Shown piece after piece: positions 1,331-26,802 of a DNA stretch of 64,000 nt (position 1 is the stretch's first letter; each line of letters begins with the position of its first letter). The stretch lies in assembly GCA_014695255.1 (NCBI GenBank), contig JACJNX010000018.1:1-64000 (forward strand), written 5' to 3'. A program made the translations under genes and the position numbers. Under the pieces are notes generated by a model. That model did no database searches and was not told where the DNA came from. It saw only the letters and a list, made by a program, of their open reading frames with translations. The DNA comes from Cyanobacteria bacterium FACHB-63 (lineage in GTDB: Bacteria; Cyanobacteriota; Cyanobacteriia; Leptolyngbyales; Leptolyngbyaceae).

Positions 1331-4290
1331 GTGATCAACGCCTTGCGGCATCAAAGGTCTCCTCACGTTGCGAAGCGACACACCGGACAAACATCTTGAT
1401 CGTGATCAACGCCTTGCGGCATCAAAGGTCTGCTCACTCAAGCACCTGTCCCATGAATTTCTCGTTCCGAATGTGATCAACGCCTTGCGGCATCAAAGGT
1501 CTGCTCACTCACGATGTCCTGTGCGATCGCGCTCAGCATCACCAGTGATCAACGCCTTGCGGCATCAAAGGTCTGCTCACACTAGATCACCCTAAAACTA
1601 GAGGGTCTGGTAAGGTGATCAACGCCTTGCGGCATCAAAGGTCTGCTCACGTAAGGATATCAGTGGCTTCGTACTCGTTACCGTCGTGATCAACGCCTTG
1701 CGGCATCAAAGGTCTGCTCACCTAACTGAATCGGGCGATCCGGTTGGTAGCGTTCGTGATCAACGCCTTGCGGCATCAAAGGTCTGCTCACTGAAGACTT
1801 GTACCGAAATTGTGTTGAATTTCACATGTGATCAACGCCTTGCGGCATCAAAGGTCTGCTCACACCTGACTATAAGATCCGGATGATGTCCTGCCATGAG
1901 GTGATCAACGCCTTGCGGCATCAAAGGTCTGCTCACTTTCATTTGCATGATTTCATTGTGCGACTGCATGTGTGATCAACGCCTTGCGGCATCAAAGGTC
2001 TGCTCACGACAGTTCCCGATACTTTAGCGATTCATGCGGCCAGTGATCAACGCCTTGCGGCATCAAAGGTCTGCTCACTAGTGCCCTTCCAATTGTCAGC
2101 ACCTATAACCTTTTCGTGATCAACGCCTTGCGGCATCAAAGGTCTGCTCACTGTTGAAGATTTGCGTCAATCCGGAGTAGCCGTTGTGATCAACGCCTTG
2201 CGGCATCAAAGGTCTGCTCACAAACACTGAGAAAGCCCATTAAGGCTAGACGAAGCTAGTGATCAACGCCTTGCGGCATCAAAGGTCTGCTCACACTCGC
2301 TTGTCGGCACCCCAACATCCAGCCCGGAACTGTGATCAACGCCTTGCGGCATCAAAGGTCTGCTCACGCGATGGATACCTCATGACTGAACCCTTAGACC
2401 AGTGATCAACGCCTTGCGGCATCAAAGGTCTGCTCACATCAAGCATTAGGGGGAGAATTAGCGATCGGACGGTGATCAACGCCTTGCGGCATCAAAGGTC
2501 TGCTCACTTGAGCGCGATCGTAGACTGCAATTCCAGCGAACAGTGATCAACGCCTTGCGGCATCAAAGGTCTGCTCACAAGGTCATCTGGGCGCGGCAAC
2601 ACAAGTCGCTTACGTGATCAACGCCTTGCGGCATCAAAGGTCTGCTCACATCAAACGAATTCTCAATCCTCGACATCTCTTATGTGATCAACGCCTTGCG
2701 GCATCAAAGGTCTGCTCACCTTTGTCCTCAAGTTAGTGCCGTCAAGATTGGCTACGTGATCAACGCCTTGCGGCATCAAAGGTCTGCTCACTAAAATTCT
2801 CAGTCCGTACAAACGGAATCATTACCCGTGATCAACGCCTTACGGCATCAAAGGTCTGCTCACTTGATGCTTGATTCTGAAAGCCTTCCTGATTCTGTCC
2901 GTGATCAACGTCTTGCGGCATCAAAGGTCTGCTCACGTATCCGGCTGATGGAATTATCAGCTACAACACCAGTGATCAACGCCTTGCGGCATCAAAGGTC
3001 TGCTCACATGAAAATCCTTCGATCGTCCCTCAAGATTTCAGGTGTGATCAACGCCTTGCGGCATCAAAGGTCTGCTCACTTTTGTGAGATGTGGTAAATT
3101 TCGGTCACTGTGTGTGATCAACGCCTTGCGGCATCAAAGGTCTGCTCACGGATGAAACGCATTCCAGATAACGCCAGTATTATGTGATCAACGCCTTGCG
3201 GCATCAAAGGTCTGCTCACCTTATCTAGCAAGCATTCTCTAGCTTTTCCCTAAGTGATCAACGCCTTGCGGCATCAAAGGTCTGCTCACGGTTGTCCCGG
3301 TGGCGGGGTGATCTGCGCTAGATGTGATCAACGCCTTGCGGCATCAAAGGTCTGCTCACCCCTTGGGAGTATGCCCTGGCACAATACCAAAACAGTGATC
3401 AACGCCTTGCGGCATCAAAGGTCTGCTCACCCGGATAGATTAAACAATGAAGTTCGTTTTATTAAGTGATCAACGCCTTGCGGCATCAAAGGTCTGCTCA
3501 CGACGTGGTACACCGCGTTTTCTACTCAGGGATTCAAGGTGATCAACGCCTTGCGGCATCAAAGGTCTGCTCACCCTGGAAAAGAACAGCGCTCACAACT
3601 TGGTAGCTAGAGTGATCAACGCCTTGCGGCATCAAAGGTCTGCTCACCGTAAATTTCTCGCAAGATTCACAGCTTTACTACGGTGATCAACGCCTTGCGG
3701 CATCAAAGGTCTGCTCACGATCACCGTTCGGGCGTTCAACTTCCCGATCACCTTCGTGATCAACGCCTTGCGGCATCAAAGGTCTGCTCACGGCTTTGTG
3801 GCGAGGATGGATCGGTTTTTTGTGTCCGTGATCAACGCCTTGCGGCATCAAAGGTCTGCTCACATCAACCCCGAACAGAAACTAACCGCAGCGATCGGTG
3901 AGTGATCAACGCCTTGCGGCATCAAAGGTCTGCTCACCCCCTCCCAGCAGCGAGGAAAGCTGAGCTTTAGAGTGATCAACGCCTTGCGGCATCAAAGGTC
4001 TGCTCACGACTCAGCCACGATGTACCAATCGTTAGCGGGGGAGTGATCAACGCCTTGCGGCATCAAAGGTCTGCTCACGTCACTAGAGGGGTAGCTTTCA
4101 ATGTCAATGATTGGTGATCAACGCCTTGCGGCATCAAAGGTCTGCTCACTGACGGTTTGCGATGTCTACGGAATGACCGCAATGTGATCAACGCCTTGCG
4201 GCATCAAAGGTCTGCTCACTACTGATTATATTGTTACCGTTTCTTGTGCAAACTGTGATCAACGCCTTGCGGCATCAAAGGTCTGCTCAC
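1331..4290 (-). CRISPR. CRISPR array, 42 repeats of 36 bp, 41 spacers
   Basis: On the + strand the repeat starts GTGATCAACGCCTTGCGGC and ends with ATCAAAGGTCTGCTCAC. Repeat-to-repeat distance is 70-74 bp, giving spacers of 34-38 nt. The first + strand repeat (1331) has a substitution near its end (CTCCTCAC for CTGCTCAC). Two internal repeats, at 2828 and 2901, carry single changes. A degenerate repeat at 1331 and the cas genes with an AT-rich leader beyond 4290 indicate transcription on the minus strand, from cas2 through the array. In that direction the repeat ends GGCGTTGATCAC and folds a short stem GCC/GGC closed by the GNRA loop GCAA. The high repeat fidelity argues for recent activity. 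The far end of the array is about 100 bp from the innermost left-end TnsB site. Confidence 0.98.
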
Positions 4291-4854: not shown

Positions 4855-6519
4855 TCAGCGCAAAATCAACTGCCCAAACAATCCGCCCTCACCACACCAC
4901 TCTTTTTCCAACAGCCGCACCTCTAATTCCAGCAACCGCCGGTACGTCAACGAATACCCTGTTACTGGATGCTTCCAAGTCTCCTCCTTGCGCCGTTCAT
5001 AGAGAGTGACAAACTTTCGCCGACCCGCATCGCTCAACCAAACTTGCTGTCCTCGGACTTCAAAATCTTCCCGGATATCCCACTGTCCTCGATTCACTGA
5101 TCCCACGATCGGCAAATCCACTAGCGGCACTCGAAAAATCTCTATCAAATCCAATGCCAGGGGTGGAGCTTGGGTTCGAGGTTGGTGATAAAACCCCAAA
5201 GCAGGCTCCAATCCGACTGTCAGGATTGCATTCATCACATCCTTCAGCAGCAAGGCATAGCCGAAACCCAATAAGGCATTAAAGCGGTCTTTCGGTGGGC
5301 GACGATTGCGATGATCAAACTGCAACTCAGGCGGCGTTGAGTCGGAAAGCAATTGAGGAAGTGCGCCAAAATAAAGCGCTGCGAGATTGCCCTCAAGTCC
5401 CAACAGAGAGTCTAAAGCAGTAACCTTTGGGACTTGTTTTAAGACCGCCTTCATTTGTGCGATCGTACTCTTCAACTCTTGCGGCACTTCCTCCTTCCCT
5501 CGTTGTCCCCGCATCAAAAACTTCCGTTGCCCCTGTCCCCGACAAATCACCAACTGCTTTGCCAACTTCAAACACTGCTCTGGATCACTCAACGCTTCAT
5601 ATTGTCGGATTCGACGCTGAATACTGCCCTGCCGCGAGTCAAAGCTTCCCAAATATCGTCCGCCCCCAGAAACCAAATGTACGCCAATTCCTTGTTCCGC
5701 ACAGAAATACAATGCCTGTGTTGAAATCTGAGAGAAACTATGGAGAACGACTTGAGCAATTTGGCGAGCGGGGATTTTCTCGACGGGCTGATTCTTCCGA
5801 GTGATTTTGAGTTGCTCACCTGTTCTTCCAACATTGGTTCCTGGCTCTAAAACATGCAGGATTTGTCGATCGTCGTCCTCTGGAAACAATCGAATCGGTT
5901 GCCAAGCGCGATCGTGCGCCAGTCGCGCCTCCTCTGGTAAACACACAGGAGCCAACGAACACGCAGCACACAGTCGCTCGTTTTCCGTAATGGGCGGACG
6001 ATGAGTAGAAACTCTCAGCCAGCGCGCTTGCTCGATCGCTCGGCGAACGTCGGCGCGTCCGGCATCATCGACTGGAATTTTGACCACCACATTATCGGCG
6101 TGATAGCGAATTCGCCCTTCTTGAATGGGAGTTCCCAACGCGGCTTCGATCAGACACGCATAGGCGAGAATTTGAATACGATCGCTCTCCCAAGCCTGCG
6201 CTTGTTTCTGTGCATCCCGATGCGCTCTTCCTCGTTTATGCTCATAGGGAATCGTCTGCCCATCCCGTGTTCTCAAAGCATCGACTCGTCCCCGCAATCC
6301 CAGTTCTGCACTTTCAAGAAAGAGTTCTTCCCAGTCCTCATCTTCTTGGGCTTCGAGTTCTACATGCAATCGTCGTCCTGCAAACACCGCAGCATCTTGA
6401 GTATAGAGTTGCTCAACTTCTTCGAGATAAAACAGACGCGGACAGTATGCCATCGCGTGAAGTGCAGACACACGAATTGTCCCCTGCTCTGTTGCAGGAG
6501 TGTCCAATGTGATAGTCAT
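4855..6519 (-). CDS. cas4-cas1: Cas4-Cas1 fusion integrase
   Basis: This 554-residue protein joins two adaptation enzymes. Residues about 10-205 are Cas4: an N-terminal Cys (YCPRLFYLEE), the nuclease motif YEHKRGR, and a distal Cys cluster (CAACSLAPVC) for an iron-sulphur centre. Residues about 215-554 are Cas1, beginning HVLEPGTNVGR, with the metal ligands in LEGNLAALYFG (Glu), the His of GFYHQPRTQ and the acidic pair in ALDLIEIFR. Cas4 selects and trims prespacers next to a PAM; Cas1 integrates them. Such fusions are characteristic of MYXAN-type and I-G systems. All visible active-site residues are present. A repeat-like hairpin lies in the 174-bp gap ahead of the gene, and no clear Shine-Dalgarno was seen. 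Confidence 0.95.
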   Translation of the reverse strand: MTITLDTPATEQGTIRVSALHAMAYCPRLFYLEEVEQLYTQDAAVFAGRRLHVELEAQEDEDWEELFLESAELGLRGRVDALRTRDGQTIPYEHKRGRAHRDAQKQAQAWESDRIQILAYACLIEAALGTPIQEGRIRYHADNVVVKIPVDDAGRADVRRAIEQARWLRVSTHRPPITENERLCAACSLAPVCLPEEARLAHDRAWQPIRLFPEDDDRQILHVLEPGTNVGRTGEQLKITRKNQPVEKIPARQIAQVVLHSFSQISTQALYFCAEQGIGVHLVSGGGRYLGSFDSRQGSIQRRIRQYEALSDPEQCLKLAKQLVICRGQGQRKFLMRGQRGKEEVPQELKSTIAQMKAVLKQVPKVTALDSLLGLEGNLAALYFGALPQLLSDSTPPELQFDHRNRRPPKDRFNALLGFGYALLLKDVMNAILTVGLEPALGFYHQPRTQAPPLALDLIEIFRVPLVDLPIVGSVNRGQWDIREDFEVRGQQVWLSDAGRRKFVTLYERRKEETWKHPVTGYSLTYRRLLELEVRLLEKEWCGEGGLFGQLILR

Positions 6520-6693: not shown

Positions 6694-7326
6694 TTAGTTC
6701 GCTTGAATCTCTGTCCAAGCGTGATTGAGAGAGTGTTGAGAATTAGAGGGCGCTTGTAAAGAATAGCGATACCACCTAGTTCCACGAGAACCAATGTGAT
6801 CAACCCAGTAGGGTAGGGTGAGCAATCCATCCTCATCTCGGATTAACCATTGCATCATCGGCATGGACTCGATTGAATCAAGAATTGTGACTGAATTAAT
6901 TAAGTCTCGGCTTTCTCCTAAACACAATCCACCAAAGCGATCGATCTGTTCAGGTTGCTCAAATGCCTGCTGCAATCGATCTCTCAGAGTCGGTTGTTGA
7001 GTCTCTTTTTCTGAATTGATCCACACTATCAAATCAACATTGGTAAGTAGTTCTTGATAGTCAGGACGTGCATTACTTGGATCACTAATCTCTTTCTTCT
7101 TGAATCGCCGAAAGGTGCGAATCAACGTGGATTTTTCGGGCTTGGAGAGGAGTGCGATCGCAATTTGTGTTCCACAATGCTTGTAACGATCCATCTCGCC
7201 TACCATCGAGAGCAACATTCCGTAAACTGTTGCAGGAGGAGGAACCGGATAGGTTTCGGCGTACTCACGGGCGCGAGATTGTCGAAAACAAGCGATCGGA
7301 ACTTCAATCCGGAGTGTAATGCTCAT
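6694..7326 (-). CDS. cas5: Cascade subunit Cas5 (DevS/Cmx5 type)
   Basis: This 210-residue protein opens with the Cas5 N-terminal strand, MSITLRIEVPIACFRQSRARE, followed by the hallmark VPPPATVYGMLLSMVGE helix. Cas5 caps the 5' handle of the crRNA in the Cascade complex. The ATG overlaps the cas7 stop by four bases (ATGA), so the two are translationally coupled. Length fits the DevS family (MYXAN subtype). The C-terminal part is variable in this family and cannot be judged by eye. Confidence 0.9.
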   Translation of the reverse strand: MSITLRIEVPIACFRQSRAREYAETYPVPPPATVYGMLLSMVGEMDRYKHCGTQIAIALLSKPEKSTLIRTFRRFKKKEISDPSNARPDYQELLTNVDLIVWINSEKETQQPTLRDRLQQAFEQPEQIDRFGGLCLGESRDLINSVTILDSIESMPMMQWLIRDEDGLLTLPYWVDHIGSRGTRWYRYSLQAPSNSQHSLNHAWTEIQAN

Positions 7327-8216
7327 GATGTAATTCCTAAATCCATAGCAATCTTCTGCTTTAGGGCTTCCACGGCTGCTTTAATGCCTCCTTCGACCGT
7401 GGCTCCGAGGTTTCTGAGTTCATCGCCTGTTGGAGATTGTGCGATTGCGCCTGCAACCCAAAGCTCTTTCGGATCAATATCTCCAAACTTTACTTTCTCA
7501 ATCAAACTATGGGCTGAAATAACTTCAGGTTCAGTTTGCTCGAAGCAATATAGCAAGCGGGGCGAAAAATCATGTGTCCAGCGCAGGACAATGCTCATAG
7601 GCGAGAAGTCGTACAAGAATCGGGAGTGATTTCCAGCGACTTCACCTAATGAGATCAGCCCATCTAATACAGCAAAAAGGCGAGATGCTTTCTTTAGGCG
7701 ATTCGGAGTCAGTGCAAATCCATACTGGTATTGCGTTGCATGAACTTCTGTTCCATAGAGCGAAGTTCTTCCCTTCTGACCACTCAATGCGTTAAACGTA
7801 ATATCGCCTGCAAATGGAGTCAGCGAAACTGCGCGAGTTACTTCTAATACGCCGCGCTTTGCTGTAGTGGTTCCCTTTGCCTTTTTTCCTTTGGGTTGAT
7901 CGCTTGCTTCCTCTTTCGCACCCTCTGCCTTCATGAAGCCCAATACATCATCATCAATGAACTGCTCATCATCAAAGGTTGATTGCCAAACATTGTCGTT
8001 TTTGTCATCGCTCCACTGGCGATTCACGGCATCGTCTCCAGTAGTTTGCCAGTAGTACCGCAACGCCCATCGAATTGCTTCAGCAGAAACCGTGGTGTGA
8101 ACTTCACCCTTCCATAGAAGCTTTTGCAGCGTTGTAATGTTCCCTTCATTCTCGCCGCGATTATTTGCCGCAGTCCCATAGCTCGTCAATACATTGCCAA
8201 ATAGATGAAAAGTCAT
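7323..8216 (-). CDS. cas7: Cascade backbone subunit Cas7 (DevR family)
   Basis: The 297-residue product begins MTFHLFGNVLTSYGTAANN and has the DevR-type block NRGENEGNITTLQKLLWKG followed by TVSAEAIRWALR. It is the RNA-binding subunit that polymerises along the crRNA spacer. An upstream in-frame ATG at 8261 is open, but the start at 8216 is preferred because homologues begin here and AGGA lies nine bases upstream. An Asp/Glu/Lys-rich low-complexity loop lies at about residues 95-140. A repeat-like hairpin (8248-8267) lies between cas8 and this gene. DevR proteins are described as autoregulators of the Myxococcus dev operon. Confidence 0.94.
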   Translation of the reverse strand: MTFHLFGNVLTSYGTAANNRGENEGNITTLQKLLWKGEVHTTVSAEAIRWALRYYWQTTGDDAVNRQWSDDKNDNVWQSTFDDEQFIDDDVLGFMKAEGAKEEASDQPKGKKAKGTTTAKRGVLEVTRAVSLTPFAGDITFNALSGQKGRTSLYGTEVHATQYQYGFALTPNRLKKASRLFAVLDGLISLGEVAGNHSRFLYDFSPMSIVLRWTHDFSPRLLYCFEQTEPEVISAHSLIEKVKFGDIDPKELWVAGAIAQSPTGDELRNLGATVEGGIKAAVEALKQKIAMDLGITS

Positions 8217-8247
8217 TCGTAAACATCCTAAATGTGAGATGGGTTTA

Positions 8248-8267
8248 GCACCTTGCGGCATCAGAGG
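8248..8267 (-). promoter_or_regulatory. CRISPR-repeat-like hairpin ahead of cas7
   Basis: The + strand string GCACCTTGCGGCATCAGAGG is identical to the one at 12893-12912 and shares its core with the array repeat. In mRNA sense it can fold GCC-GCAA-GGT (one G-U pair) with the same GNRA loop as the array repeat. It sits 31 bases before the chosen cas7 start, just upstream of its ribosome binding site. Confidence 0.6.
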
Positions 8268-8281
8268 AGATGAATTTTTAG

Positions 8282-9796
8282 CTAATCGTAGTCGGGAAGT
8301 TCTTCATCAGAAGAAGCCTGTTTACCTTTGCCTTTATAGCTTGCCAAGGCTAGAAGCGTTAGATCTTTTGCCTTTCTCCAACTCCGTTGATCAGTGGCTA
8401 GAATTAGAAGTTCTTGCCAGTGATCTTGCAAAGTTGGAACTTGTCCTGCTCTTGACCAAAAATCAGTAATAAATTGTCGAAAAGTTTCTGGGTTTTTGCA
8501 TCGTCCTAAACTTGTGCGAATGCGTTCATTTTCTCGATCGATGTTCGCAATCTCTCCTTTCCGTTCAGCGTAGTCATAGATTTTCTTGTACGTTCTGCTT
8601 AAGGCTTCGTGACAAGCTTTAACAAATAGCTTTTCGATCGTTTCATCCATGATCTGTACCATGTTGTGTAATCCTTCTCGTTCGTAGGTCAGTAGCTTGA
8701 ATTGCTCTCCACTGTTGATCAGTTCAGCCAGGTTTTCGTACCAAGGTCGATTTCTAGCTAAGTTCTCAGCCACAATTTCACAGGCAAAGCTGGGTGCAAT
8801 AAAACTGCCCTCTTTACCTTCAATTTTTCGGGGTGGAAGGCAGTTCCGGGCGTGTTGATAGATAACACAAACTTTTGCATCTGCCTCAATGACCTCTAAA
8901 TCGGTTCGAGTTTTCTGTTGAGACGACCAAGCGACAGTTCCTAAAGTGACAACCTGACAACTAGGAATTCTTTGTGTTTCAAGGGCATTAATCGTTTCTT
9001 CATAGGTCAGAAATCGTAATCCTGCATCCCCAAGACTGGAAGCATGAAAATCCTCGTAGCCAATAGTGCGAAAATCTTTTCTCCGTTCCGCATAGCTTTC
9101 TAGATTTGTGACTTCAGGAATGACGAGCGCATATTGAGCGCGTTTGTCTCGAAGACGCGATCGCAACAGAAAATACTGACAAGCGATCGGCGCGAATAGT
9201 AAGACTAGGGCGTGTTTGGGAGTTTCTTCAAATCCAGTTTGACCACTAAAGGCAACATGGCGAACAACTGCTCCTGGGTTCAGCCAACCTGCAATACTGA
9301 GCGATTGTTTTAATAGTTCACCCTTATCATTACACAATGTTTTAGCAAATTCTTGATGGGCATAACTTTTTGCCTTTTGATACTGAACTTTAAACGGTAC
9401 ACCTTCATCTACTGGAATGGCTTTAACAACATTCCCATCTGATTTAAACGTGCTGGGGTGTTGCAGGAAAGTTCCACGAATTCCTTGATGAATCGTGATT
9501 TGATTTTGCAAGTCTAGAGTTTCAGGTTGCAATCCGGTGAGCGCAATTAATCCTTCCTTCTCACCGCTCTCCTCAATCCGAAAAGACTGCTTGAGCAGCC
9601 AATCTAGAACCTTAAAGTCCTGTCCCTCCCAACTTAAGCTCACTTGTCGAGATGTTAAATCCCAAGTTAAATTACCAGGTCGATCGCGGACGGATTCGAG
9701 TGCTTGTAAGGTCATGTAAAGTCCTGCAAGTCCAGCACGATGAATTAAGGTCATTTCTGGTTCGCTTAAATGCAAGTCGATTTTAGTCTGGCTCAT
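8282..9796 (-). CDS. cas8: Cascade large subunit Cas8 (MYXAN/Cmx type)
   Basis: This 504-residue protein starts with a MYXAN-type Cas8 N-terminus (LIHRAGLAGLYMTLQ) and continues with blocks such as GIRGTFLQHPS and SLSIAGWLNPGAVVRH. Cas8 recognises the PAM and helps to open target DNA. Assignment rests on this N-terminal signature, the length, and its position between cas3 and cas7, the order of DevT/DevR/DevS in the Myxococcus dev locus. It overlaps the cas3 stop by 14 bases. No CXXC zinc motifs of other Cas8 groups were seen. Confidence 0.85.
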   Translation of the reverse strand: MSQTKIDLHLSEPEMTLIHRAGLAGLYMTLQALESVRDRPGNLTWDLTSRQVSLSWEGQDFKVLDWLLKQSFRIEESGEKEGLIALTGLQPETLDLQNQITIHQGIRGTFLQHPSTFKSDGNVVKAIPVDEGVPFKVQYQKAKSYAHQEFAKTLCNDKGELLKQSLSIAGWLNPGAVVRHVAFSGQTGFEETPKHALVLLFAPIACQYFLLRSRLRDKRAQYALVIPEVTNLESYAERRKDFRTIGYEDFHASSLGDAGLRFLTYEETINALETQRIPSCQVVTLGTVAWSSQQKTRTDLEVIEADAKVCVIYQHARNCLPPRKIEGKEGSFIAPSFACEIVAENLARNRPWYENLAELINSGEQFKLLTYEREGLHNMVQIMDETIEKLFVKACHEALSRTYKKIYDYAERKGEIANIDRENERIRTSLGRCKNPETFRQFITDFWSRAGQVPTLQDHWQELLILATDQRSWRKAKDLTLLALASYKGKGKQASSDEELPDYD

Positions 9797-12200
9797 GAGT
9801 TCTTGCTCCCAGATTGCGGCAATAGGTCACAACAGAAGAAGGCGCGATCGGATAAATGCCTTGGCGCTTCCATTGTGTGAAATAAGGATTGAGTGGAATT
9901 GGAACTGTCCAACCTTGTGCAATGACTCCAAATGGCTTATCAGGCTTCCTCACTTGTGCCCAAATTTTTGGTAAATCATCTTCTAGCAAAACGGTGATGG
10001 TATATCCTGCTTCTCGTAATGCGCCAGGATACGATCGCCAACGTCCATCTAACCAACAAGCTTCACTTTCTAAGGGCTGACGCAAATCTAAATCTGCGGC
10101 TGCGATCGCAAGATCCGCTTGAGTGAGTTCTTGGTTGAGTAAGCGATAGCAAAAGACTTCCCCAGTCTCTAGCCCATCTTTTTTATAAGGAGCTTTCTGC
10201 CGCCAGTCATAGATTAGAGCAGGACATATCTTGCCAGATTTCAAAGAAACTGTTCCACCTTCTGACTCAATCACTTTGCGATTTAGCCTTCCCATGCGCT
10301 GAATCAGCGCTGGAGCCGGAGCCATTGCAGAAACAAGCAATTGGGCACTGAGGTCTAATGACATCTCACAAACTTGAGTTGTAATCGCTAAGATTGCTCG
10401 ATCGGAATTAAAAGCGTCAATCACTGCCTGATGTTTGGCTTTGCGATCGTGATACCGATATCGACTGTGATAAATCAAAATCTGACAGTCTAGATCACGT
10501 AGCTGTTTGCAGGCTTGTAAATAAAGCTCAATGCAACTATTAACCGTGTTTGTTACCCACAGTACCTTTTCTTTTCGCTGAAGGGTTGCTTCAGCAGACT
10601 CCCAAGCGATTTCAGGATGATCAATTCGGTGAATTGAATAGCGAGGGAGATTTTCTAAATTCTGAGGACTGGGAATCTGATCATTCAAGGTTTCTCCCAA
10701 ATCTTCTTCGACGACTTGCTTGATTTTGGCTTTTTGACCTTCAGTAAATGAAGCGCTCATCAGTAAGATCGGTGCGCCTCGAAACGTTTTGAGAAACCTT
10801 AACAGCGCCCCAAATAATTTCTCTCCATAAGCATGAACTTCATCAAAGACGAAAGCAGATTGGCAAAGCGTTGCCCACGAATAGAGCGGTTTACGGTTGT
10901 TCTGAAGCAGTCCCAATACTGAATCAACAGTGCAGACAATTAACTTCGCCTCCCAAGCCTGAAAAGAAGCAAGTCGGGCATCGATTTTCTCTGCATCTGT
11001 ATCGTTGTCTTCAGTTTGTTTATCATGTTCTGCTTCGTTAGAAAACAAAATCTCTTCGAGGTCAATCTGCGATCGCGAGTGCATTAGTGCAGTTTCGATG
11101 TCAGTTGTTGCTGCATAGTCAAGAAATCCTTGAGAAGCCGTTCCGGTTGTGGGATATCCAAAAAATAATCTTCGTCCTTCTGCATGATGTTTTGCCCAAG
11201 CATAGGCAGCGATCGTTTTACCTGTGCCGCATCCTGCCTGAACGAGTGTGACGCGCGATCGACTTTCTGCAATCTGTTGTTGAAAAGGACGCAGGCTATT
11301 TTGACCTAATCGCTGATCGAGCAATTCTTGAATTTCAGCCGGGGTTAGAACTAACTTCAGCTTTTCTTCAATCCATTTCTCAATGCTGTAGCCTGTTGCC
11401 GGAATTGCAGATCCAACTAAGTCCGCAGTCATTACTGTTGCTTTAATCGCTGCAATCCATCGCTTCTCTGACTCAGTGATTGATTTCTCGAATTGAATAA
11501 AGCATTCAAGAAGTTGTTTGAGAGAAGCTTTCAATTCTTCTGTAGACCAATCGCGTGTTGGATAGCTGGGTAAGACTTCAGATAACTTGAGGTGTTTTAC
11601 CCCTAGTTTCAGAAGTCCATTAAAGTGATCATGCCCAGTGTAAATGCTCAGATTCGGGCTGCCTGTTGCTGCTAATTTGGGCATTTTGTCAATTTTTTTA
11701 CCATTTTTGCCTCCAATTTTGAGGTGGTGTCCCATTGCTGCCCAAGCCGCGATCGTGATTTCTTTTTCTGAGTATTGTGATTGCAACCAGTTCCAAAACG
11801 CATCAACATTCATCGCCAAAATGCCACTAATCGCCTCATGACGAAGCATCTGGCGCTCATTTAGTGATTTCCATTCCTCTTGTAAATCCTTCTGCTGTTT
11901 TCGTTCTTGATCGTTGGCACAATCTTTCGGCTTCTTTTGCCTGACCATAATCTGAAAGTGTCGATTCGCTTTACCCCAGTCGTGTAAGAAAGCGCCTAAT
12001 TTTACGATCGCAATGAACCGCTCTAGCTCAAATTCCTCTAATGCAAGCTGTTGCCAAATCGTACTTCCTAAATGTTGAGTCAATACCTCTGCTGATTTCA
12101 GAACATTCTCTGTATGTCCTACTAAACCTGCACTTGCTTTCCATCCTTCATGTGCAGGTTGAGATTTTGCCAAAAGTATCCTGAACCCTCTAGGGGTCAT
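9783..12200 (-). CDS. cas3: CRISPR effector helicase-nuclease Cas3 with N-terminal HD domain
   Basis: This 805-residue protein has an HD nuclease domain (residues about 15-270; LVGHTENV and the HD pair in AFLHDWGKANRHF) and a superfamily 2 helicase. Helicase motifs seen are Walker A QAGCGTGKT, Walker B FDEVHAYGE, motif III LLMSASFT and the motif VI stretch LIQRMGRLNR. Cas3 is recruited by Cascade and degrades the opened target. An intact Cas3 makes this an interference-competent system, unlike CRISPR-associated transposons, which lack it. ATG overlaps the cas6 stop by four bases. Confidence 0.96.
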   Translation of the reverse strand: MTPRGFRILLAKSQPAHEGWKASAGLVGHTENVLKSAEVLTQHLGSTIWQQLALEEFELERFIAIVKLGAFLHDWGKANRHFQIMVRQKKPKDCANDQERKQQKDLQEEWKSLNERQMLRHEAISGILAMNVDAFWNWLQSQYSEKEITIAAWAAMGHHLKIGGKNGKKIDKMPKLAATGSPNLSIYTGHDHFNGLLKLGVKHLKLSEVLPSYPTRDWSTEELKASLKQLLECFIQFEKSITESEKRWIAAIKATVMTADLVGSAIPATGYSIEKWIEEKLKLVLTPAEIQELLDQRLGQNSLRPFQQQIAESRSRVTLVQAGCGTGKTIAAYAWAKHHAEGRRLFFGYPTTGTASQGFLDYAATTDIETALMHSRSQIDLEEILFSNEAEHDKQTEDNDTDAEKIDARLASFQAWEAKLIVCTVDSVLGLLQNNRKPLYSWATLCQSAFVFDEVHAYGEKLFGALLRFLKTFRGAPILLMSASFTEGQKAKIKQVVEEDLGETLNDQIPSPQNLENLPRYSIHRIDHPEIAWESAEATLQRKEKVLWVTNTVNSCIELYLQACKQLRDLDCQILIYHSRYRYHDRKAKHQAVIDAFNSDRAILAITTQVCEMSLDLSAQLLVSAMAPAPALIQRMGRLNRKVIESEGGTVSLKSGKICPALIYDWRQKAPYKKDGLETGEVFCYRLLNQELTQADLAIAAADLDLRQPLESEACWLDGRWRSYPGALREAGYTITVLLEDDLPKIWAQVRKPDKPFGVIAQGWTVPIPLNPYFTQWKRQGIYPIAPSSVVTYCRNLGARTHEPD

Positions 12201-12847
12201 GGCTCACCTCCAGGAATAAAGATGCCGCAGCCCATTTTGCGCTTTCCACCGATGCCTAAGATTTGAAGTTTAAGCGAGTCTTCTTCGCTGAGATCTGCGA
12301 TTTCGAGTCCAAATCCGACCACTGAATATCGCTTGATTTTGATGACCTTGCGATCGATTTCTCCCGTTGCATGGGTCGGAATGTTCACAGATCCCGTAAT
12401 TTCTAATGCCTGTAACTGTCGCCTTGCTGCTTCTAAGAACGGTTCTGGATCTTGAAATCCCTTGATCACTACAATCCGCGCCTTCAACTTAGGAGCCGGA
12501 TTTAGCATAAACACCTTGGGAATACCCAGATGAATAGAATGGACACCAATCTTGAGCGATTTTCCTGCGAGGCGATAGACGATCGGAATTTGATCAACAG
12601 GCAACCGAATTCTCAACCTAGAATAATCAGAAAGGTAAATCTTCCCTTGCTTGTCGGGAAATCCAGTAATTGTTTGTATGCTAATCCCCTGCAAGCTATG
12701 AACTTCAGGGCAGATGTGAACAATGCTGGAGTATAAACCATAACCTTGATCCGCAGGTAGCGTCTTACCAACAACTCCAAAGCTGAGTTCAACATGGGGC
12801 AAATCTATCTCAGAAGTTTGAGTAGACGAATTTTGAGTAACCAGCAC
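12197..12847 (-). CDS. cas6: crRNA-processing endoribonuclease Cas6 (Cmx6 type)
   Basis: This 216-residue protein has a Cas6/RAMP ferredoxin-type fold with the C-terminal glycine-rich block GIGGKRKMGCGIFIPGG. It begins LPHVELSFGVVGKTLPADQG, a start typical of Cmx6. The start codon is GTG with AGGAG ten bases upstream. Cas6 cuts the repeat hairpin of pre-crRNA and usually stays bound. It is the first clear cas gene of the operon and is preceded by its own repeat-like hairpin at 12893-12918, a possible autoregulatory binding or cleavage site. The family is clear; the catalytic His/Tyr cannot be fixed by eye. Confidence 0.88.
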   Translation of the reverse strand: MLVTQNSSTQTSEIDLPHVELSFGVVGKTLPADQGYGLYSSIVHICPEVHSLQGISIQTITGFPDKQGKIYLSDYSRLRIRLPVDQIPIVYRLAGKSLKIGVHSIHLGIPKVFMLNPAPKLKARIVVIKGFQDPEPFLEAARRQLQALEITGSVNIPTHATGEIDRKVIKIKRYSVVGFGLEIADLSEEDSLKLQILGIGGKRKMGCGIFIPGGEP

Positions 12848-12892
12848 AGTGAGGTTTCTCCTGAAACATAAAGGTTAATTAAGGACTGTGTG

Positions 12893-12918
12893 GCACCTTG
12901 CGGCATCAGAGGGATCAC
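12893..12918 (-). promoter_or_regulatory. CRISPR-repeat-like hairpin in the cas6 5' leader
   Basis: In mRNA sense this reads GTGATCCCTCTGATGCC then GCAAGGTGC, close to the array repeat with a three-base deletion near its start. The GCC-GCAA-GGT hairpin is kept. It lies 46 bases upstream of the cas6 GTG. Twenty bases are identical to the element ahead of cas7. Confidence 0.65.
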
Positions 12919-12948
12919 GGTCGATAAGTATTGTAGACCTGAAAATTG

Positions 12949-13152
12949 CTACCGATTAATTTCTTGGTAGTCTGCGATCGATAAAATATCACTATCACAC
13001 TCAATTGCGATCGACTCTGCAAGGGCTAACTTCTCCTTCAGTTCCGCAATCTGTTGTTGTAAGCTTGAGCCGCTTTCACGAAGTTTCTCAGGGTCAACCC
13101 TGCTTACGTAGAGTTTGTGCTTCAATCCGCACTCAGGACGGAAAAAATTCAT
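12949..13152 (-). CDS. Small coiled-coil protein, first gene of the cas operon
   Basis: This 67-residue protein starts with ATG eight bases after GAGG and lies 22 bases after the predicted transcription start of the cas operon promoter. Residues about 28-50 form a heptad-like helix (LQQQIAELKEKLALAE). No known family is recognised. Its position matters: in the Myxococcus dev operon a small ORF, devI, also precedes the devTRS cas genes and is kept low by Cas-dependent autorepression. This protein is not similar in sequence to any toxin I know and has no runs of rare codons. Its role is open: regulator, toxin-like cargo, or leader peptide. Confidence 0.6.
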   Translation of the reverse strand: MNFFRPECGLKHKLYVSRVDPEKLRESGSSLQQQIAELKEKLALAESIAIECDSDILSIADYQEINR

Positions 13153-13180
13153 AAGTTTTACCTCGGTAAGAGTAAACCGG

Positions 13181-13210
13181 ATCGTAGCACAGCTTTTTGA
13201 GTTTTGTAAA
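13181..13210 (-). promoter_or_regulatory. Predicted cas operon promoter
   Basis: On the minus strand a -35 box TTTACA (13205-13210) and a -10 box TACGAT (13181-13186) are separated by 18 bases. This gives a start near 13174 and a 22-base leader before the small ORF. The -35 box overlaps both the palindrome at 13205-13224 and the protospacer of the crRNA-like gene. Confidence 0.5.
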
Positions 13211-13224
13211 TCTTGAGATTTACA
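13205..13224. promoter_or_regulatory. Perfect 20-bp palindrome over the cas promoter -35 box
   Basis: TGTAAATCTTGAGATTTACA is a perfect inverted repeat. Its place over the -35 box suggests a repressor or activator operator, separate from the guide-RNA target it overlaps. No candidate binding protein can be named. Confidence 0.5.
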
Positions 13225-13234
13225 CTGTTCTCAT
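13209..13234 (-). promoter_or_regulatory. Protospacer-like target of the crRNA-like gene
   Basis: The minus-strand site 13231-13209 matches the spacer of the crRNA-like gene at 18 of 23 positions: 1-5, 7-10, 13, 15-21 and 23. Mismatches fall at 6, 11, 12, 14 and 22. Positions 6 and 12 are the flipped-out bases in type I guide-target duplexes. The three bases on the PAM side (13234-13232) read ATG. The site abuts and overlaps the -35 box of the cas promoter. Confidence 0.6.
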
Positions 13235-13275
13235 CTGAAAAGTATCGTTTCAACCTGAAACATTGGATTTTGGAT

Positions 13276-13366
13276 GGGAAAAACACCTTACGGTATCAAA
13301 GGTAATCTCAGACTCTTGAGTTGCACACAGTTCTGTGATCAACACTTGGAAGAACTCAGGTCTTCC
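13276..13366 (-). ncRNA. CreR/CreA-like crRNA-resembling guide RNA
   Basis: Read on the minus strand, this has four parts. First is a hairpin GGAAGA/TCTTCC (13366-13348) followed by GTGTTGATCAC, which keeps the repeat's 3' handle. Second is a 23-nt spacer (13334-13312). Third is a degenerate repeat that keeps CCTTTGAT and about 26 of 36 repeat bases. Fourth is a T-run (13283-13279). The repeat stem has changed from GCC-GCAA-GGC to ACC-GTAA-GGT, a compensatory change that keeps both pairing and a GNRA loop. A -10-like TATACT lies at 13397-13392. The layout matches the degenerate-repeat/spacer/degenerate-repeat plan of CreA and CreR RNAs that guide Cascade to a promoter without cleavage. Confidence 0.6.
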
Positions 13367-13437
13367 GAGTATCTGAGGTACTTGTCTGTAGAGTATACCG
13401 CTCATGGGCATTATGCTCTCCTAGTTAAAAGCTAAGA

Positions 13438-15651
13438 TTACAGCCAGAACTGCCGATCGCCATCCAACGCGCTCGGATAAATCCCGTTCAACCGTAGCCC
13501 AGCCATTCGATCCGCTCCATGCAACGGCATCGGTAAGCGCGGTGCTTTCAGCGCACCATGATGAAGCAGTGTCAGCTTGAGAGTTGTATCAATAACTTGC
13601 TCAATGGGAACTTGATGTCCCTCCGGATGAATCGTTAAACGGAGCGGTCGAGCTAATCCAACATTCGGAGACACCTTTGTTGTAATTAGAATGGCATCCC
13701 GGTTGGAGAGTAACAAAGCCTGTCCGATTTCTGGAGCATCCAAGATCTGATTCTTCACTGTGTAGAGCCTCGGCACTCTCGACTTTCGGCATTCGACCAG
13801 AATGAAACGGGCTGCGATCGCACTTGATCGCTCTAATAAGTTCTGAACTTCCTGCCCACAAAAGAAGCCATCTCGATAAATCAAAACCGTCTTGCCTTCT
13901 AACTCCGTCGCCGGAAACAGCCGCTCTAAAAATCGCTGCGGAATTTCTTCGCCTTCAATCAGTCCATCCTCCAAGCGATAACGAACAAAATTTCCCTGAT
14001 TTCCATAAAGGCGAACACTCGCACAAGCATTCATCGTTCCGGGCTGTCTTCGCTTGTTCACTCTCGACACATCCAAACCCACGCAATAATCTGTGATCGT
14101 AAACGGATCAGCTAACACAAACGGAAGATTCCCCAGCTTTGCCAAAATTCCCGGTACAACTTGATTCAAGATTTGTCCCGATGCAACCGTTTTGAAGGTT
14201 TCCTCATAGATAAACTGACTGGCGATCTGTCGGCGCAACAGTTGAGAATACGCTAACTGATAAAGACTGCCACTCGTCTCTTGATCCGCTTTGCGATCGT
14301 GCTGCGGTAAAAATAGTAAAACAACATCTGGCGAAAATGCAGCCGTTTCGTTCAGCGCTTTCTCTAGATTTGCTCTTACGTTGGCTTGACTCTCTCCCTG
14401 ACTCAGTAAGTCCTTACGCTCAATGATCTCACTCTGAAACCCGAACTGCTGAAGACAATACTGCAAACCCTGCAAAAACCGATTAACTTTGACATCACAG
14501 AGCTTCAGAACAGCAATTTGGATCGGGCGAGATTGAAACGTAGGATGTCGATAGTAAACGCCACCTGTTTTCAGACCCGACAAAATTTGCTTCCAGGTAC
14601 CACTGTGCCCATTTCCAAACAAAAGCGGGGTTTCTTGAATAGATTGCGGCATTTGAGAAAAGAGCGCAGGATAGTCCTCAGTGTTAATACTGCGCTGAAG
14701 TTGAACGCCATAACTTGCCAAAGCTTGTGCGGCTTCCTGCTTATAAGTTTTGAGCAATCGAGTCCGCTCCAGATGTTGAACTTTGGTTGCCCGCAGTAGC
14801 TGTCCATACTGCACTTCAAATCGATCGGCTGTTTCTTCTGTAATTCGAGGACGCAAGGCAGCGATCGCATACTCAAACACTTTTTTGCCCCGTCCAAACT
14901 GCACTCCAACCACAGGTTGATCCTCTGGAGCGTCCCGAAGTGCCTGTTGACTGACTGCACCTGTCGCTTTTTGCAGCAGATCGTTTCGCTTCTGATCAAT
15001 GGTTCCAACAATCTCAGTAATCACACCCTGTCCATTCGTTTCGAGATCTTTCACCTGCAATCCAATCAATAATTTTGCAGGATCATGACGCAACACATGG
15101 GATTCATAAAACTCTGCCACAGTACCTCGAAATCCAATATCACTGTGAACGGAGAGTGCGATTGCAGGTCGCGTTTCTGGTAGCGCGATCGTTTCTGCCC
15201 AAAATTCAACCTCTCGATTCACCGTTACTCGATCCGCAGACAGTACAGAAGGGCGTGAAAATTGAGCGTTCATTTGCAACACTTGGCAAGCAAGTTGAGA
15301 AAGCACAATTGGATCACATTGAGGTTGGCGAATCCATTGAATCGACAACGGGCGATCGCTAATATCTTGAACCTCAGTGCGGACTCGCTCTAGTGCCGTT
15401 CGCCATTCTGCTGCGGTTGGCGTTGCTTGATCCGGTTGAATCAATGCAAAGAAATCGCCTTGATGCCAAGTTACAACCACTTGCGGGAATTGCCGCCCAA
15501 GATGAAAACTGAGACGATTTCCTAATTCTCGATCGCAAGATGCAGTGTTAGGGGCTAAACGAAACGCAATCAGGTTAGACGATGGTATAGTCAATGGGAA
15601 AACTTCACTTAAGGCGATAAGTTTTGCATCCGTCAATACATCAGTCGTCAT
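13438..15651 (-). CDS. Long prokaryotic Argonaute, PIWI catalytic residues present
   Basis: The product is 737 residues from the ATG at 15651, which overlaps the upstream nuclease stop as ATGA. The longer open frame to 15687 adds an unlikely Cys-rich start. The C-terminal third is a PIWI domain: GLDVSRVN (first Asp), an acidic EGEEIP stretch (possible Glu finger), LIYRDGFF (second Asp) and LPMPLHGADRMAG (final Asp, or His). A MID-like region with LAYSQLLRRQIASQF precedes it. The motif set suggests an active, guide-directed nuclease of the long-A pAgo group. Such proteins use small nucleic-acid guides against plasmids and phages. Guide and target chemistry cannot be told from sequence. It forms an operon with the Cas4-like nuclease. 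Confidence 0.9.
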   Translation of the reverse strand: MTTDVLTDAKLIALSEVFPLTIPSSNLIAFRLAPNTASCDRELGNRLSFHLGRQFPQVVVTWHQGDFFALIQPDQATPTAAEWRTALERVRTEVQDISDRPLSIQWIRQPQCDPIVLSQLACQVLQMNAQFSRPSVLSADRVTVNREVEFWAETIALPETRPAIALSVHSDIGFRGTVAEFYESHVLRHDPAKLLIGLQVKDLETNGQGVITEIVGTIDQKRNDLLQKATGAVSQQALRDAPEDQPVVGVQFGRGKKVFEYAIAALRPRITEETADRFEVQYGQLLRATKVQHLERTRLLKTYKQEAAQALASYGVQLQRSINTEDYPALFSQMPQSIQETPLLFGNGHSGTWKQILSGLKTGGVYYRHPTFQSRPIQIAVLKLCDVKVNRFLQGLQYCLQQFGFQSEIIERKDLLSQGESQANVRANLEKALNETAAFSPDVVLLFLPQHDRKADQETSGSLYQLAYSQLLRRQIASQFIYEETFKTVASGQILNQVVPGILAKLGNLPFVLADPFTITDYCVGLDVSRVNKRRQPGTMNACASVRLYGNQGNFVRYRLEDGLIEGEEIPQRFLERLFPATELEGKTVLIYRDGFFCGQEVQNLLERSSAIAARFILVECRKSRVPRLYTVKNQILDAPEIGQALLLSNRDAILITTKVSPNVGLARPLRLTIHPEGHQVPIEQVIDTTLKLTLLHHGALKAPRLPMPLHGADRMAGLRLNGIYPSALDGDRQFWL

Positions 15652-16475
15652 GCGGATACCTCCGATGCAACAGCAGAAAAATTGCATAGAGATTCAAACT
15701 GGCAATATTGGCAGCGCTTGAGGTCAGAATTGGGAGGAAAAATTTGCTCAAATTTCCCTGGGTCTTGGCGATAGTGTTGCCGTTCTTGATCGTGCTGCTG
15801 AGCAATTCGTTCTAAGTTAGATTGAATTGCATTTAACTGCGCTGAAGTTGCGCTGATAGGTTCAGACCAATAACACGTTTCCAGGTTATAGAAGGACGCA
15901 ACCGCCCTTTGATTGAAATAGAGTTTACGAAGAGCGACCAGATAGACGTAGGCTTGGCGCAAATCGAAGTCTGTCTTACCAGTTTTGAAGTCTAGGATGT
16001 GTAGTGTTCCGTCAGGTTCTCTGAAGATGCAATCGATCGCAGCATACAGTCGAAACTCAGCAGACTGACCTGCAAACTCGATAGCATCAGGGATTCCTTC
16101 ATCTCCTCGACTCAACTGCACAATTTCTTTACCTGATAGAATCGGGCTTCTCTGATAGTTCATCAGAATCTGTTGCACTCGCTCACGTACAAGCGAAGGT
16201 TCTGCCTGCAAGTTCAGAATGGATGCGATAGTCTGGACTCCATCCGATTGAGTCAACGCAGAGGGATGGTGATGAAACTCGTATACTGCACGTTGCGCCA
16301 ATAGTCCGATGCGTTGAACCGTTGTGTCCTGAGCTAAAAGGGCAGCAACCTCTGGTTCCCTCTGGCGAACTCGCTTAAATCCGCGCTTCATATCACAGTG
16401 CCAATATTCCTGAGCGATAGCAGGCACACATTCTGATAGCAATGCAAAACTGACGAAGGGTTTATACAGTTTCAT
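15648..16475 (-). CDS. Cas4-like PD-(D/E)XK nuclease paired with pAgo
   Basis: The 275-residue product has the nuclease motif HILDFKTGKTDFDLRQAYVY (Asp and D-x-K), an upstream acidic residue in the AIDCIF strand, an N-terminal Cys pair (SEC...YWHC) and a C-terminal cluster RCQYCQFESLC. Together these are the layout of Cas4/AddB-type iron-sulphur nucleases. The ATG at 16475 is chosen over a TTG at 16490 because GGAG lies about ten bases upstream. Cas4-like nucleases are known partners of long pAgos and may make or trim guides. It is distinct from the Cas4 half of the Cas4-Cas1 fusion. Three palindromes lie just upstream. Confidence 0.85.
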   Translation of the reverse strand: MKLYKPFVSFALLSECVPAIAQEYWHCDMKRGFKRVRQREPEVAALLAQDTTVQRIGLLAQRAVYEFHHHPSALTQSDGVQTIASILNLQAEPSLVRERVQQILMNYQRSPILSGKEIVQLSRGDEGIPDAIEFAGQSAEFRLYAAIDCIFREPDGTLHILDFKTGKTDFDLRQAYVYLVALRKLYFNQRAVASFYNLETCYWSEPISATSAQLNAIQSNLERIAQQHDQERQHYRQDPGKFEQIFPPNSDLKRCQYCQFESLCNFSAVASEVSA

Positions 16476-16495
16476 CAGGTCTTTCTCCAAAACAA

Positions 16496-16574
16496 GTTGA
16501 TTTTTTCGTCAACGAACTCGATAATAAACGCATGTTGAATTTTTCGTCAACAGTTTGTTGATTTTTTCGCCAAC
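16496..16574. promoter_or_regulatory. Three 18-bp operator-like palindromes between pAgo and XRE operons
   Basis: Sites at 16496-16513 and 16534-16551 read GTTGA-N8-TCAAC, and 16557-16574 reads GTTGA-N8-CCAAC. The interior is almost constant (TTTTTTCG or ATTTTTCG). They fill the gap between the divergent nuclease-pAgo operon and the XRE/ImmA operon, as expected for binding sites of the XRE protein encoded next to them. Confidence 0.75.
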
Positions 16575-16613
16575 CCTCACTAAGATAAAAAGCGAGGGAT
16601 CAGGAATAATACT

Positions 16614-17003
16614 GTGAGTCAAAGCTTTGGACGTTTAATCCGCGACGCTCGAAAAGAGAAAGGATATAGCCAACGTGACCTCGCCAAGCGTGTGGGGCTA
16701 GATTTTACTTATCTTTCCAAACTGGAGAACGATCGTGCAGAGTATCCGCCTAAAGAAGAGGCAATTCGGCAAATTGCAATTCAGTTAGACCTTGATGCTG
16801 AAGAATTGATTTTTCTAGCAGGGCGATTTCCTGAGCGAGATGAAGAAGTAGTTCGGCAGAATTATAGGATGTTGCCTGTTCTTTTTCGTCGCCTGAAAAC
16901 TGACCCCGATTTTGCTCAAGAAGTTAGTTCTATGTTGGGTGAACCAAATCTGGCAGAAGTTGAAAACTTCGTTGAATCTGTGTCTGAGGAGAGCGAAGAT
17001 TGA
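16614..17003 (+). CDS. XRE-family repressor
   Basis: This 129-residue protein has an N-terminal helix-turn-helix of Cro/C1 type (FGRLIRDARKEKGYSQRDLA, then GLDFTYLSKLENDRAEYP), and a helical C-terminal half likely for dimerisation. The GTG start follows AGGAA. Its stop overlaps the start of the ImmA/IrrE-type gene, so the two are coupled. XRE/ImmA pairs in mobile elements work as a repressor and a protease that removes it after DNA damage or another cue. Divergent placement and three shared palindromes suggest it represses the pAgo operon and itself. Confidence 0.88.
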   Translation: MSQSFGRLIRDARKEKGYSQRDLAKRVGLDFTYLSKLENDRAEYPPKEEAIRQIAIQLDLDAEELIFLAGRFPERDEEVVRQNYRMLPVLFRRLKTDPDFAQEVSSMLGEPNLAEVENFVESVSEESED

Positions 17004-17656
17004 GTATCTTTAAACCGTTCCGTTTCTATGCTGACAAACGGGAAATTGAGGGACAAGCTGAGAAGATTTTGCAGCAGATGAAGTCAGCTCCAAACTATAC
17101 CCCTCAATTTCCACTAGATCCAACCCGTGTTGCAGAGTTTTTAGGACTTGATGTTGTGTGGGATCGTATTCCACCCGATGAGCAGGGACAGATTGCAGCC
17201 AGGATTCTACCAACGAAAAAACTGATCGAAATCAATGAAGACATTCCAGAGTTGCGGGGTGGATTCGGGAATTCAACGATCGCCCATGAAATTGGTCATT
17301 GGGTGCTTCACGTTAATCATGACGAGGCTGAGGGACGGATACAACAGCAGAGTTTGTTTCCGGAGACTCCGCCGCCTTTTCTCTGTCGCGCCTTGGGTGA
17401 ATTGAAAGGAATTGAGTGGCAAGCCCAATATTTTGCGGGCTGCCTCTTGATGCCACGCGATGTTCTACAAGAGAAAGCTAAGCATCGAACTCTAACAAAA
17501 TGGTCGCACTTATATGCAATGGCGGAAGATTTAGAGGTCACTATCTCAAATCTTACGACTCGCCTTCAAGATTTGGGTTGGATTCATATTCCAAACAACT
17601 CCAAGCAGATTTATCTAGGGAAATCTCACTCCAACGAGCAGGGACAGCTTTTTTAG
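17000..17656 (+). CDS. ImmA/IrrE-type zinc metallopeptidase
   Basis: This 218-residue protein carries the zinc-binding signature HEIGHWVLH (residues about 95-103) with a downstream acidic region, typical of COG2856 ImmA/IrrE peptidases. Start is TTG overlapping the XRE stop (TTGA). The known role of the family is cleavage of a cognate XRE repressor, as ImmA does with ImmR in ICEBs1 and IrrE with DdrO in Deinococcus. Here it would relieve repression of the pAgo operon. The trigger is unknown. Confidence 0.88.
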   Translation: MSIFKPFRFYADKREIEGQAEKILQQMKSAPNYTPQFPLDPTRVAEFLGLDVVWDRIPPDEQGQIAARILPTKKLIEINEDIPELRGGFGNSTIAHEIGHWVLHVNHDEAEGRIQQQSLFPETPPPFLCRALGELKGIEWQAQYFAGCLLMPRDVLQEKAKHRTLTKWSHLYAMAEDLEVTISNLTTRLQDLGWIHIPNNSKQIYLGKSHSNEQGQLF

Positions 17657-26638: not shown

Positions 26639-26715
26639 TGCTTGCCCTCCTTCAATATTTGGCAGAAGCTAATGAGCCACAGTTTGAAGCACCAACAAAA
26701 AAGCCATACACCAGC

Positions 26716-26802
26716 AGTGTACAGCTTTATTTGCTGGTGTACAACTTTAGCAATCAGTGTAATACTTTATTTGCTAGTGTACAACTTTATTTTCAATTTA
26801 CA
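26716..26802. repeat. Transposon right end with four abutting TnsB-type sites
   Basis: Four 20-bp sites at exact 20-bp spacing start at 26716, 26736, 26756 and 26776, each like AGTGTACAACTTTATTTGCT. The terminal ATTTACA ends at 26802. Overlapping or abutting sites at the right end only are the Tn7 pattern. These sites also cover the region upstream of tnsA, so TnsB bound here could repress the tns operon, as described for Tn7. Confidence 0.92.

Follow-up and report, generated by a model that had tools for sequence, protein, structure and literature searches.

A crRNA-like gene and its target upstream of cas6

The DNA analysed here (the window, 64,000 nucleotides from Cyanobacteria bacterium FACHB-63) carries a CRISPR-Cas operon of type I-MYXAN, with cas6 (Cmx6, I-MYXAN) at 12197-12847 on the minus strand. 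Between cas6 and a prokaryotic Argonaute (pAgo) gene lies a stand-alone gene resembling that of a CRISPR RNA (crRNA), at about 13366-13277 on the minus strand, which we call the guide gene. Its 5′ pseudo-repeat (13335-13366) consists of a hairpin, GGAAGACCTGAGTTCTTCC (13366-13348), and a 5′ handle, GTTGATCAC (13343-13335), that is identical to the end of the array repeat. A 23-nt spacer, AGAACTGTGTGCAACTCAAGAGT, occupies 13312-13334 and is followed by a 3′ pseudo-repeat (13277-13311), in which the stem GCC-GCAA-GGC has changed to ACC-GTAA-GGT with its pairing compensated, together with a run of Ts where, as a guess, the RNA may end. Upstream of the gene a putative -10-like box, TATACT, was picked out by eye (13392-13397, minus strand), and similar boxes, again by eye, precede the guide in some relatives. 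A terminator scan of 12800-13500 gave no terminator, an Rfam scan of the window returned a tRNA and nothing else, and the 101-nt guide stretch folds with z = -1.58, a value equalled by 15 of 200 shuffles. Repeat-like sequences and one spacer, standing alone near a cas operon, form a mini-CRISPR of the CreR kind. Excerpts of two reviews describe CreR as a crRNA-like RNA encoded beside cas genes and partly complementary to the cas promoter, with Cascade as the repressor (PMC12737573, PMC13131331).

The spacer matches the minus strand of 13231-13209 at 18 of 23 positions, the mismatches falling at 6, 11, 12, 14 and 22. An earlier account drawn from the letters alone (the sequence-only reading) had described this handle, spacer, compensated degenerate repeat, T-run and match, all of which we reproduced. 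Absent from it was the protospacer-adjacent motif (PAM), ATG, in the three bases 5′ of the protospacer (13232-13234, minus strand). It had also set the target against a -35 box, and a promoter-like site, TTTACA-18-TACGAT (13181-13210, minus strand; 9 of 12), does contact the PAM-distal end of the target with its -35 element. This predicted promoter of the cas operon precedes an open reading frame (ORF) of 67 amino acids and then cas6; two such promoter-like sites occur in the region against a shuffle mean of 1.1, which is weak when taken alone. The ORF (12949-13152, minus strand; GAGG upstream of its ATG; no Pfam family over the cut-off) is presumed to be the first gene of the operon, a refinement of the sequence-only reading.

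No other site in the 64-kb window matches the spacer as well (the runner-up reaches 16 of 23), and 3 of 300 shuffled spacers attain 18 or more somewhere in the 64 kb. When scoring was confined to sites flanked by ATG within the 900 nt ahead of cas6, none of 1000 shuffled guides equalled the observed score, and ATG+AGAACNGTGT, the PAM plus seed, occurs a single time in the 7.2-Mb genome, at the target. While the 18/23 count by itself is weak, location, PAM and the relatives described below make the match decisive.

The remaining genes of the operon, like the array, are on the minus strand: cas3 (HD nuclease-helicase, 9783-12200), cas8a1 (Cmx1, I-MYXAN, 8282-9796), cas7 (DevR family 'autoregulator', 7323-8261), cas5 (DevS, 6694-7326), a MYXAN cas4-cas1 fusion (4855-6519) and a CRISPR array at 1331-4290 with 41-42 copies of the repeat GTGAGCAGACCTTTGATGCCGCAAGGCGTTGATCAC. 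All the markers of type I-MYXAN (I-B) are thus present in the window (Cmx6, Cas8a1/Cmx1, Cas7/DevR, Cas5/DevS and MYXAN Cas1), which bears out the MYXAN call of the sequence-only reading. Its Tn7 setting likewise stands, the system being carried by a Tn7-like element that encodes TnsA, B, C and D and adjoins glmS (26826-28712). The element covers approximately 1100-26790, with short direct repeats close to either end (at 1100-1232 and 26715-26789); it bears Cas3 and is not a CRISPR-associated transposon (CAST). According to the accessible part of PMC11406308, I-B1 CASTs have lost nuclease and spacer-acquisition genes and have a short array; here, Cas3, Cas4-Cas1 and the 41-42 repeat copies are all present. 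In one relative (L100), Cas3 and TnsD matches likewise lie within one stretch. The element also carries defence cargo at 13438-17656, namely a Class II pAgo with an adjacent Cas4-like nuclease and an HTH/M78 pair resembling CapH/CapP. A second locus of the source genome (L041) is I-B CAST-like, with TnsB, C and D and with neither cas3 nor a guide.

Guide and target pairs in relatives

A search of relatives for the guide/target pair had been proposed beforehand. Cas6 was searched in 194 and 388 genomes around the source genome (partly overlapping sets); for the Cmx6 family, 96 genomes were searched, all from the family to which a Myxococcus xanthus genome belongs. We read 92 loci, the window included: 58 of 69 cyanobacterial Cas6 matches, 26 of 32 Myxococcaceae matches and 8 of 10 plasmid matches. 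Two loci with less than 110 nt upstream of cas6 (L035 and L045) were kept among the 92, and not all loci are independent (e.g., L102/L192, L040/L097, L046/L047 and the Myxococcus set). In 30 of the 92 loci, 26 cyanobacterial and 4 from Myxococcaceae, a guide matches a site that lies upstream of cas6; the guides differ, and each matches its own upstream region. The PAM is ATG in 29 pairs and TTG in one, the same two that are given as preferred PAMs of a dev-type system in the part of PMC11237760 available to us (ATG 36.84%, TTG 13.16%).

For the first 84 loci a fixed rule was applied, which took all stand-alone handles in the 1 kb preceding cas6 and chose the target of each by ATG plus positions 1-5 and 7-10 only. 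This gave 29 handles in 27 loci, of which 23 score 8 or 9 of 9; the six below 8 are those of L160, L166 and L178, the second handles of L038 and L040, and that of L032, which fails the ATG-only rule and is counted via its TTG target. At positions not used for choosing, the 19 cyanobacterial fixed-rule cases match at 79 of 95 for positions 13-17, 6 of 19 for position 12, 3 of 19 for position 18 and 42 of 114 for positions 19-24. Over all 26 cyanobacterial pairs, matches number 25-26 at each of positions 1-5, 7 at position 6, 20-26 at positions 7-11, 9 at position 12, 19-22 at positions 13-17 and 4 at position 18. Since these 26-pair tallies include pairs partly chosen on the tallied positions, the fixed-rule figures are the fair ones. 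L040 and L048 have two candidate targets each, and the fixed-rule tally took those at -411 and -620, the other tally those at -399 and -56. Pairing at 1-5, 7-11 and 13-17 but not at 6, 12 and 18 is a Cascade footprint with 6-nt periodicity. The target base is A at positions 6, 12 and 18 in 22, 20 and 16 of the 26 cyanobacterial targets, above other positions; perhaps A-T pairs cost less to open where the RNA pair is absent.

The match is retained in relatives despite sequence change, which is our criterion for a CreR. The 26 cyanobacterial pairs have 25 different seeds, so guides must have changed together with their targets, and in L102 and L192 (the latter from the plasmid set), which share blocks of 90-94% identity, guide and target are both altered at positions 2 and 4, a compensated change. 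When guides were swapped among the first 14 pairs, with ATG sites only, 12 of 14 scored 12-15 of 15 on their own target, and the top off-diagonal score was 11. Plasmid loci were examined later and contain a pair in 5 of 8 cases: Gloeothece citriformis PCC 7424 (L189), Nostoc MS1, Synechocystis PCC 6714 (plasmid pSYLB, L191), Nostoc CENA543 and Cylindrospermopsis curvispora.

Guideless loci, 19 in number, were also scanned over the 750 nt before cas6 irrespective of a handle and without shuffles. L100 scored 14/15 with the handle GTTGGGCAT and was accepted as a pair. Not counted were L172 (14/15, TTG, no handle) and L041, L056 and L095 (one 13/15 match each, no handle); the matches shown among the 65 in L063 are array repeats, and 13 of the 19 loci gave nothing. 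In loci with no visible array (L035, L041, L043, L044 and L047), repeats were scanned for with the repeat of another locus.

The best promoter-like site near the target scores 8.8/12 on average, compared to 7.2/12 at places drawn at random from the same loci. In loci with a visible site of this kind, the target is found at the -35 element or immediately ahead of it (window, L038, L042, L083, L097, L192 and L193) or immediately behind the -10 element (L043, L046, L047, L051 and L054). Cyanobacterial targets are on the same strand as the operon in 22 of 26 cases and on the opposite strand in 4, a mixture that fits DNA targeting. One guide (L048) has two ATG-flanked targets with the same seed, at about -56 and -620 from cas6, so that a second gene may be controlled.

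Probable Cascade-guided autorepression and its alternatives

Taken together, these data make it highly likely that the locus is a CreR-type mini-CRISPR for Cascade-guided autorepression of the Tn7-borne I-MYXAN operon; the small RNA gene very probably directs the CRISPR machinery to the operon's own promoter. We propose that a short RNA would be transcribed from the locus, trimmed to a crRNA-like guide with a normal 5′ handle, and taken up by the Cascade that the operon itself encodes (Cas5-6-7-8). This complex would recognise ATG and positions 1-5, 7-11 and often 13-17 at the cas promoter, where, once bound, it would block RNA polymerase. Cas3 should stay unfired because pairing ends by about position 17, and the outcome would be self-repression, not cleavage. 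The more Cascade is free, the stronger this repression would be; array crRNAs or anti-CRISPRs that engage Cascade would weaken it. For CreA, mutational tests in the accessible part of PMC8501985 found that positions 1-5 and 7-11 are required and 6 and 12 are not, and that Cascade is needed and cas3 is not. A PAM, free positions 6 and 12 and a promoter position are what a Cascade roadblock needs. The sequence-only reading had proposed a CreR/CreA-type, seed-only match; the relatives uphold its CreR-type part, and the seed-only part gives way to pairing that often extends through three segments to position 17.

Several observations weigh against this autorepression. No pair was found in 62 of the 92 loci, some of which have room for one (L033, L037, L050, L052 and L056), and in the window pair mismatches 11 and 14 fall within the pairing segments. 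Two pairs fail the ATG shuffle test: L032, whose target has TTG (133 of 1000 shuffles equal it), and L047, whose target is truncated where the searched stretch ends (326 of 1000). The third segment is looser in the plasmid set, with 15 of 25 matches at positions 13-17. The promoter-like site is equalled by at most 10% of random places for only 12 of the 26 targets, the rest being unremarkable. Finally, the 5′ pseudo-repeat of the window has lost the array stem sequence, and processing of its guide may therefore differ.

The alternative that survives best, which we hold to be unlikely but by no means negligible, resembles CreTA or CrePA: the guide would mainly silence a small protein that harms the cell (the product of the first ORF, or devI in Myxococcus) and so render the cell Cascade-dependent, with cas repression as a by-product. 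In its favour, 12 of 20 guide-bearing cyanobacterial loci have an ORF of 49-75 amino acids (ATG or GTG start; 67 in the window) between target and cas6, and a devI-like gene accompanies all four guide-bearing Myxococcaceae loci and none of the 22 others, devI being a sporulation inhibitor according to an excerpt of PMC8730458. However, 8 of the 20 loci have no such ORF (6 have none at all and 2 a TTG start only; in 5 of the 8 the target is less than 60 nt from cas6), and some of the 12 may be chance ORFs. Inspection by eye suggests that the 12 fall into two kinds or more and that several are coiled-coil-like; L102 has a sub-threshold helix-turn-helix resemblance, and six of the peptides gave no Pfam family over the cut-off.

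Antisense or other RNA-level control of the operon mRNA, with no Cascade on DNA, is very improbable. An excerpt of a review does have Cas5-7-8 use 'a distinct antisense RNA' on devI (PMC8730458), yet most guides (22 of 26 in the cyanobacterial pairs, all four in Myxococcaceae) read in the sense direction of the operon and cannot pair with operon mRNA, while the PAM and the free positions 6 and 12 indicate Cascade on DNA; we rejected it on these grounds. We give hardly any credence to a homing guide that would direct insertion of a CAST. The system does lie within a Tn7-like element with TnsABCD, and CASTs employ special guides for attachment sites, as the accessible part of PMC11406308 has it. 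Against this, the guide targets the cas promoter of the very element that carries it, Cas3 and Cas1 are encoded in the operon, and the element sits at glmS, as TnsD predicts. Among the other guide-bearing cyanobacterial loci of the first two sets, tns matches were seen in L100 alone (at most 20 kb read). The guide is also absent from all nine cyanobacterial CAST or CAST-like loci with no cas3 match (L041, L049, L053, L092, L095, L101, L103, L104 and L195), and on this showing it seems to control a defence cargo rather than RNA-guided transposition; the homing guide was rejected. That the gene is what is left of a broken array, functionless and with a spacer that matches its own locus by chance or was acquired once, would suit the degenerate repeats and the 3 of 300 shuffled spacers. 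It is extremely improbable given 30 loci in which the match persists ahead of cas6 despite differing sequences and carries both the expected PAM and the 6-nt periodicity, and it is on the relatives, not on the 18/23 figure, that we reject a chance match.

A lone repeat-like stretch, CCTCTGATGCCGCAAGG, lies in the cas6 leader of the window (12896-12912, minus strand), and a like stretch follows the target in the leader in 7 of 20 guide-bearing cyanobacterial loci (window, L036, L038, L039, L083, L096 and L102), matched by 0 or 1 of 300 shuffles in each; it is a possible Cas6 site for RNA-level self-control. In addition, we searched 3.5 kb for WYL-type regulators, with the upstream regulators of L191-L194 as queries. 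Where the end of such a gene is within 120 nt of cas6 (19 loci), no guide is present, and where it ends farther upstream, a guide is present in 15 of 20 loci. This suggests that WYL-type regulator and guide are alternative controls of the operon, although the absence of the guide perhaps follows simply from lack of room. The guide appears to occur where cas6 has a free-standing promoter ahead of it and, within the loci read, where the system bears Cas3.

The dev operons of Myxococcus and known systems

A full dev-type set (Cas6, Cas3, Cas8, Cas7, Cas5 and Cas1) is present in 8 of the 26 Myxococcaceae loci (L156, L157, L162, L164, L165, L166, L167 and L169). Four of these (L157, L162, L165 and L169) carry, immediately before cas6, a guide whose handle is GTTGAGCAA and whose target, flanked by ATG, lies 196-246 nt upstream of it; no accepted pair was found in the other 22 Myxococcaceae loci. 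Between guide and target lies a devI-like reading frame, of 31-40 codons in three loci and with an ambiguous start in L169, and a devI-like peptide search matched these four loci and none of the 22 others. Guide and target of L157 alike differ from those of the other three at positions 7, 8 and 11, and position 9 is mismatched in all four pairs. In L156, L164, L166 and L167, the upstream gene ends directly before cas6, and by eye the stretch comprising target, small ORF and guide is missing; L156 and L162 are 98% and 91% identical on the two flanks of that stretch. Rajagopalan et al. (2015) reportedly found devI missing from most natural M. xanthus isolates, with which the missing stretch agrees. 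M. xanthus AM003 gave no match to Cmx6 or to the Cas8 model used.

We think it reasonably probable that autoregulation by DevTRS in Myxococcus is RNA-guided, with a crRNA-like gene between devI and cas6 that would send the dev Cascade to just upstream of devI. The same joint claim takes in the 'DevR family autoregulator' label on Cas7, gain and loss of devI and guide as one module, a developmental pathway in which CRISPR effectors serve as an RNA-guided transcription factor, and the operation of this circuit in cyanobacterial MYXAN systems as well. The link to dev autoregulation made by the sequence-only reading thus gains support from four dev-type operons of the M. xanthus family, which extends to relatives of DK1622 only. 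In the part of a 2021 review available to us, the mechanism of dev autoregulation is called unknown, and the activities of Cas6 and Cas3 are dispensable for dev feedback (PMC8616872), which weighs against an RNA-guided dev circuit; given that Cas6 is dispensable, a dev guide would need another trimming route. The hairpin before the handle differs from the array hairpin in L162, L165 and L169 and could fit such trimming. If dev autoregulation is RNA-guided, the devI-cas6 interval of M. xanthus DK1622 should hold GTTGAGCA and a spacer matching the site upstream of devI. The guides described here would extend RNA-guided cas autorepression to the MYXAN/dev group and offer a candidate, from sequence, for the missing guide of dev autoregulation, making an old question testable by a few point mutations in M. 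xanthus. In addition, the 30 pairs can be read as a mutational scan of Cascade pairing done by nature, in which positions 6 and 12 are free and pairing mostly ends at 17.

CreR and CreA are already known, and CreR RNAs regulating cas genes of types I-B, I-E and V-A were reportedly described by Liu et al. in 2023. Our literature search, whose scope did not include Liu 2023, Shmakov 2023 (mini-arrays) or the devI papers (J Bact 2015, 2017), turned up no guide reported for MYXAN or dev operons, and we make no claim of priority. Like CreR, the present system has a crRNA-like gene beside cas, partial complementarity to the cas promoter and Cascade as the proposed repressor; it differs in being of the dev-like type I-MYXAN, in often pairing through three 5-nt segments to position 17, in the small ORF that often heads the target operon and, for the window, in being carried by a Tn7-like element. 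With CreA of CreTA from Halobacterium hubeiense and Haloarcula hispanica it shares, on the available parts of PMC8501985 and PMC9458426, a single spacer flanked by degenerate repeats, pairing at positions 1-5 and 7-11 but not necessarily at 6 and 12, and a PAM by the target. CreA, however, represses a toxin RNA and uses the PAM TTC, whereas here the target stands before the cas operon or the small ORF that heads it and has ATG. Autoregulation by DevTRS in M. xanthus, as far as described in the accessible parts of PMC8616872 and PMC8730458, involves a homologous Cas8-Cas7-Cas5 and negative control of its own operon, as proposed here; the guides that we found lie outside the array, in relatives of DK1622. 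Finally, type I-B1 CASTs (AvCAST-like; PMC11406308, in part) resemble the window system in the Tn7-like element, the glmS-targeting TnsD and the relatives of I-B Cascade; unlike these CASTs, the window system retains Cas3, Cas4-Cas1 and a long array.
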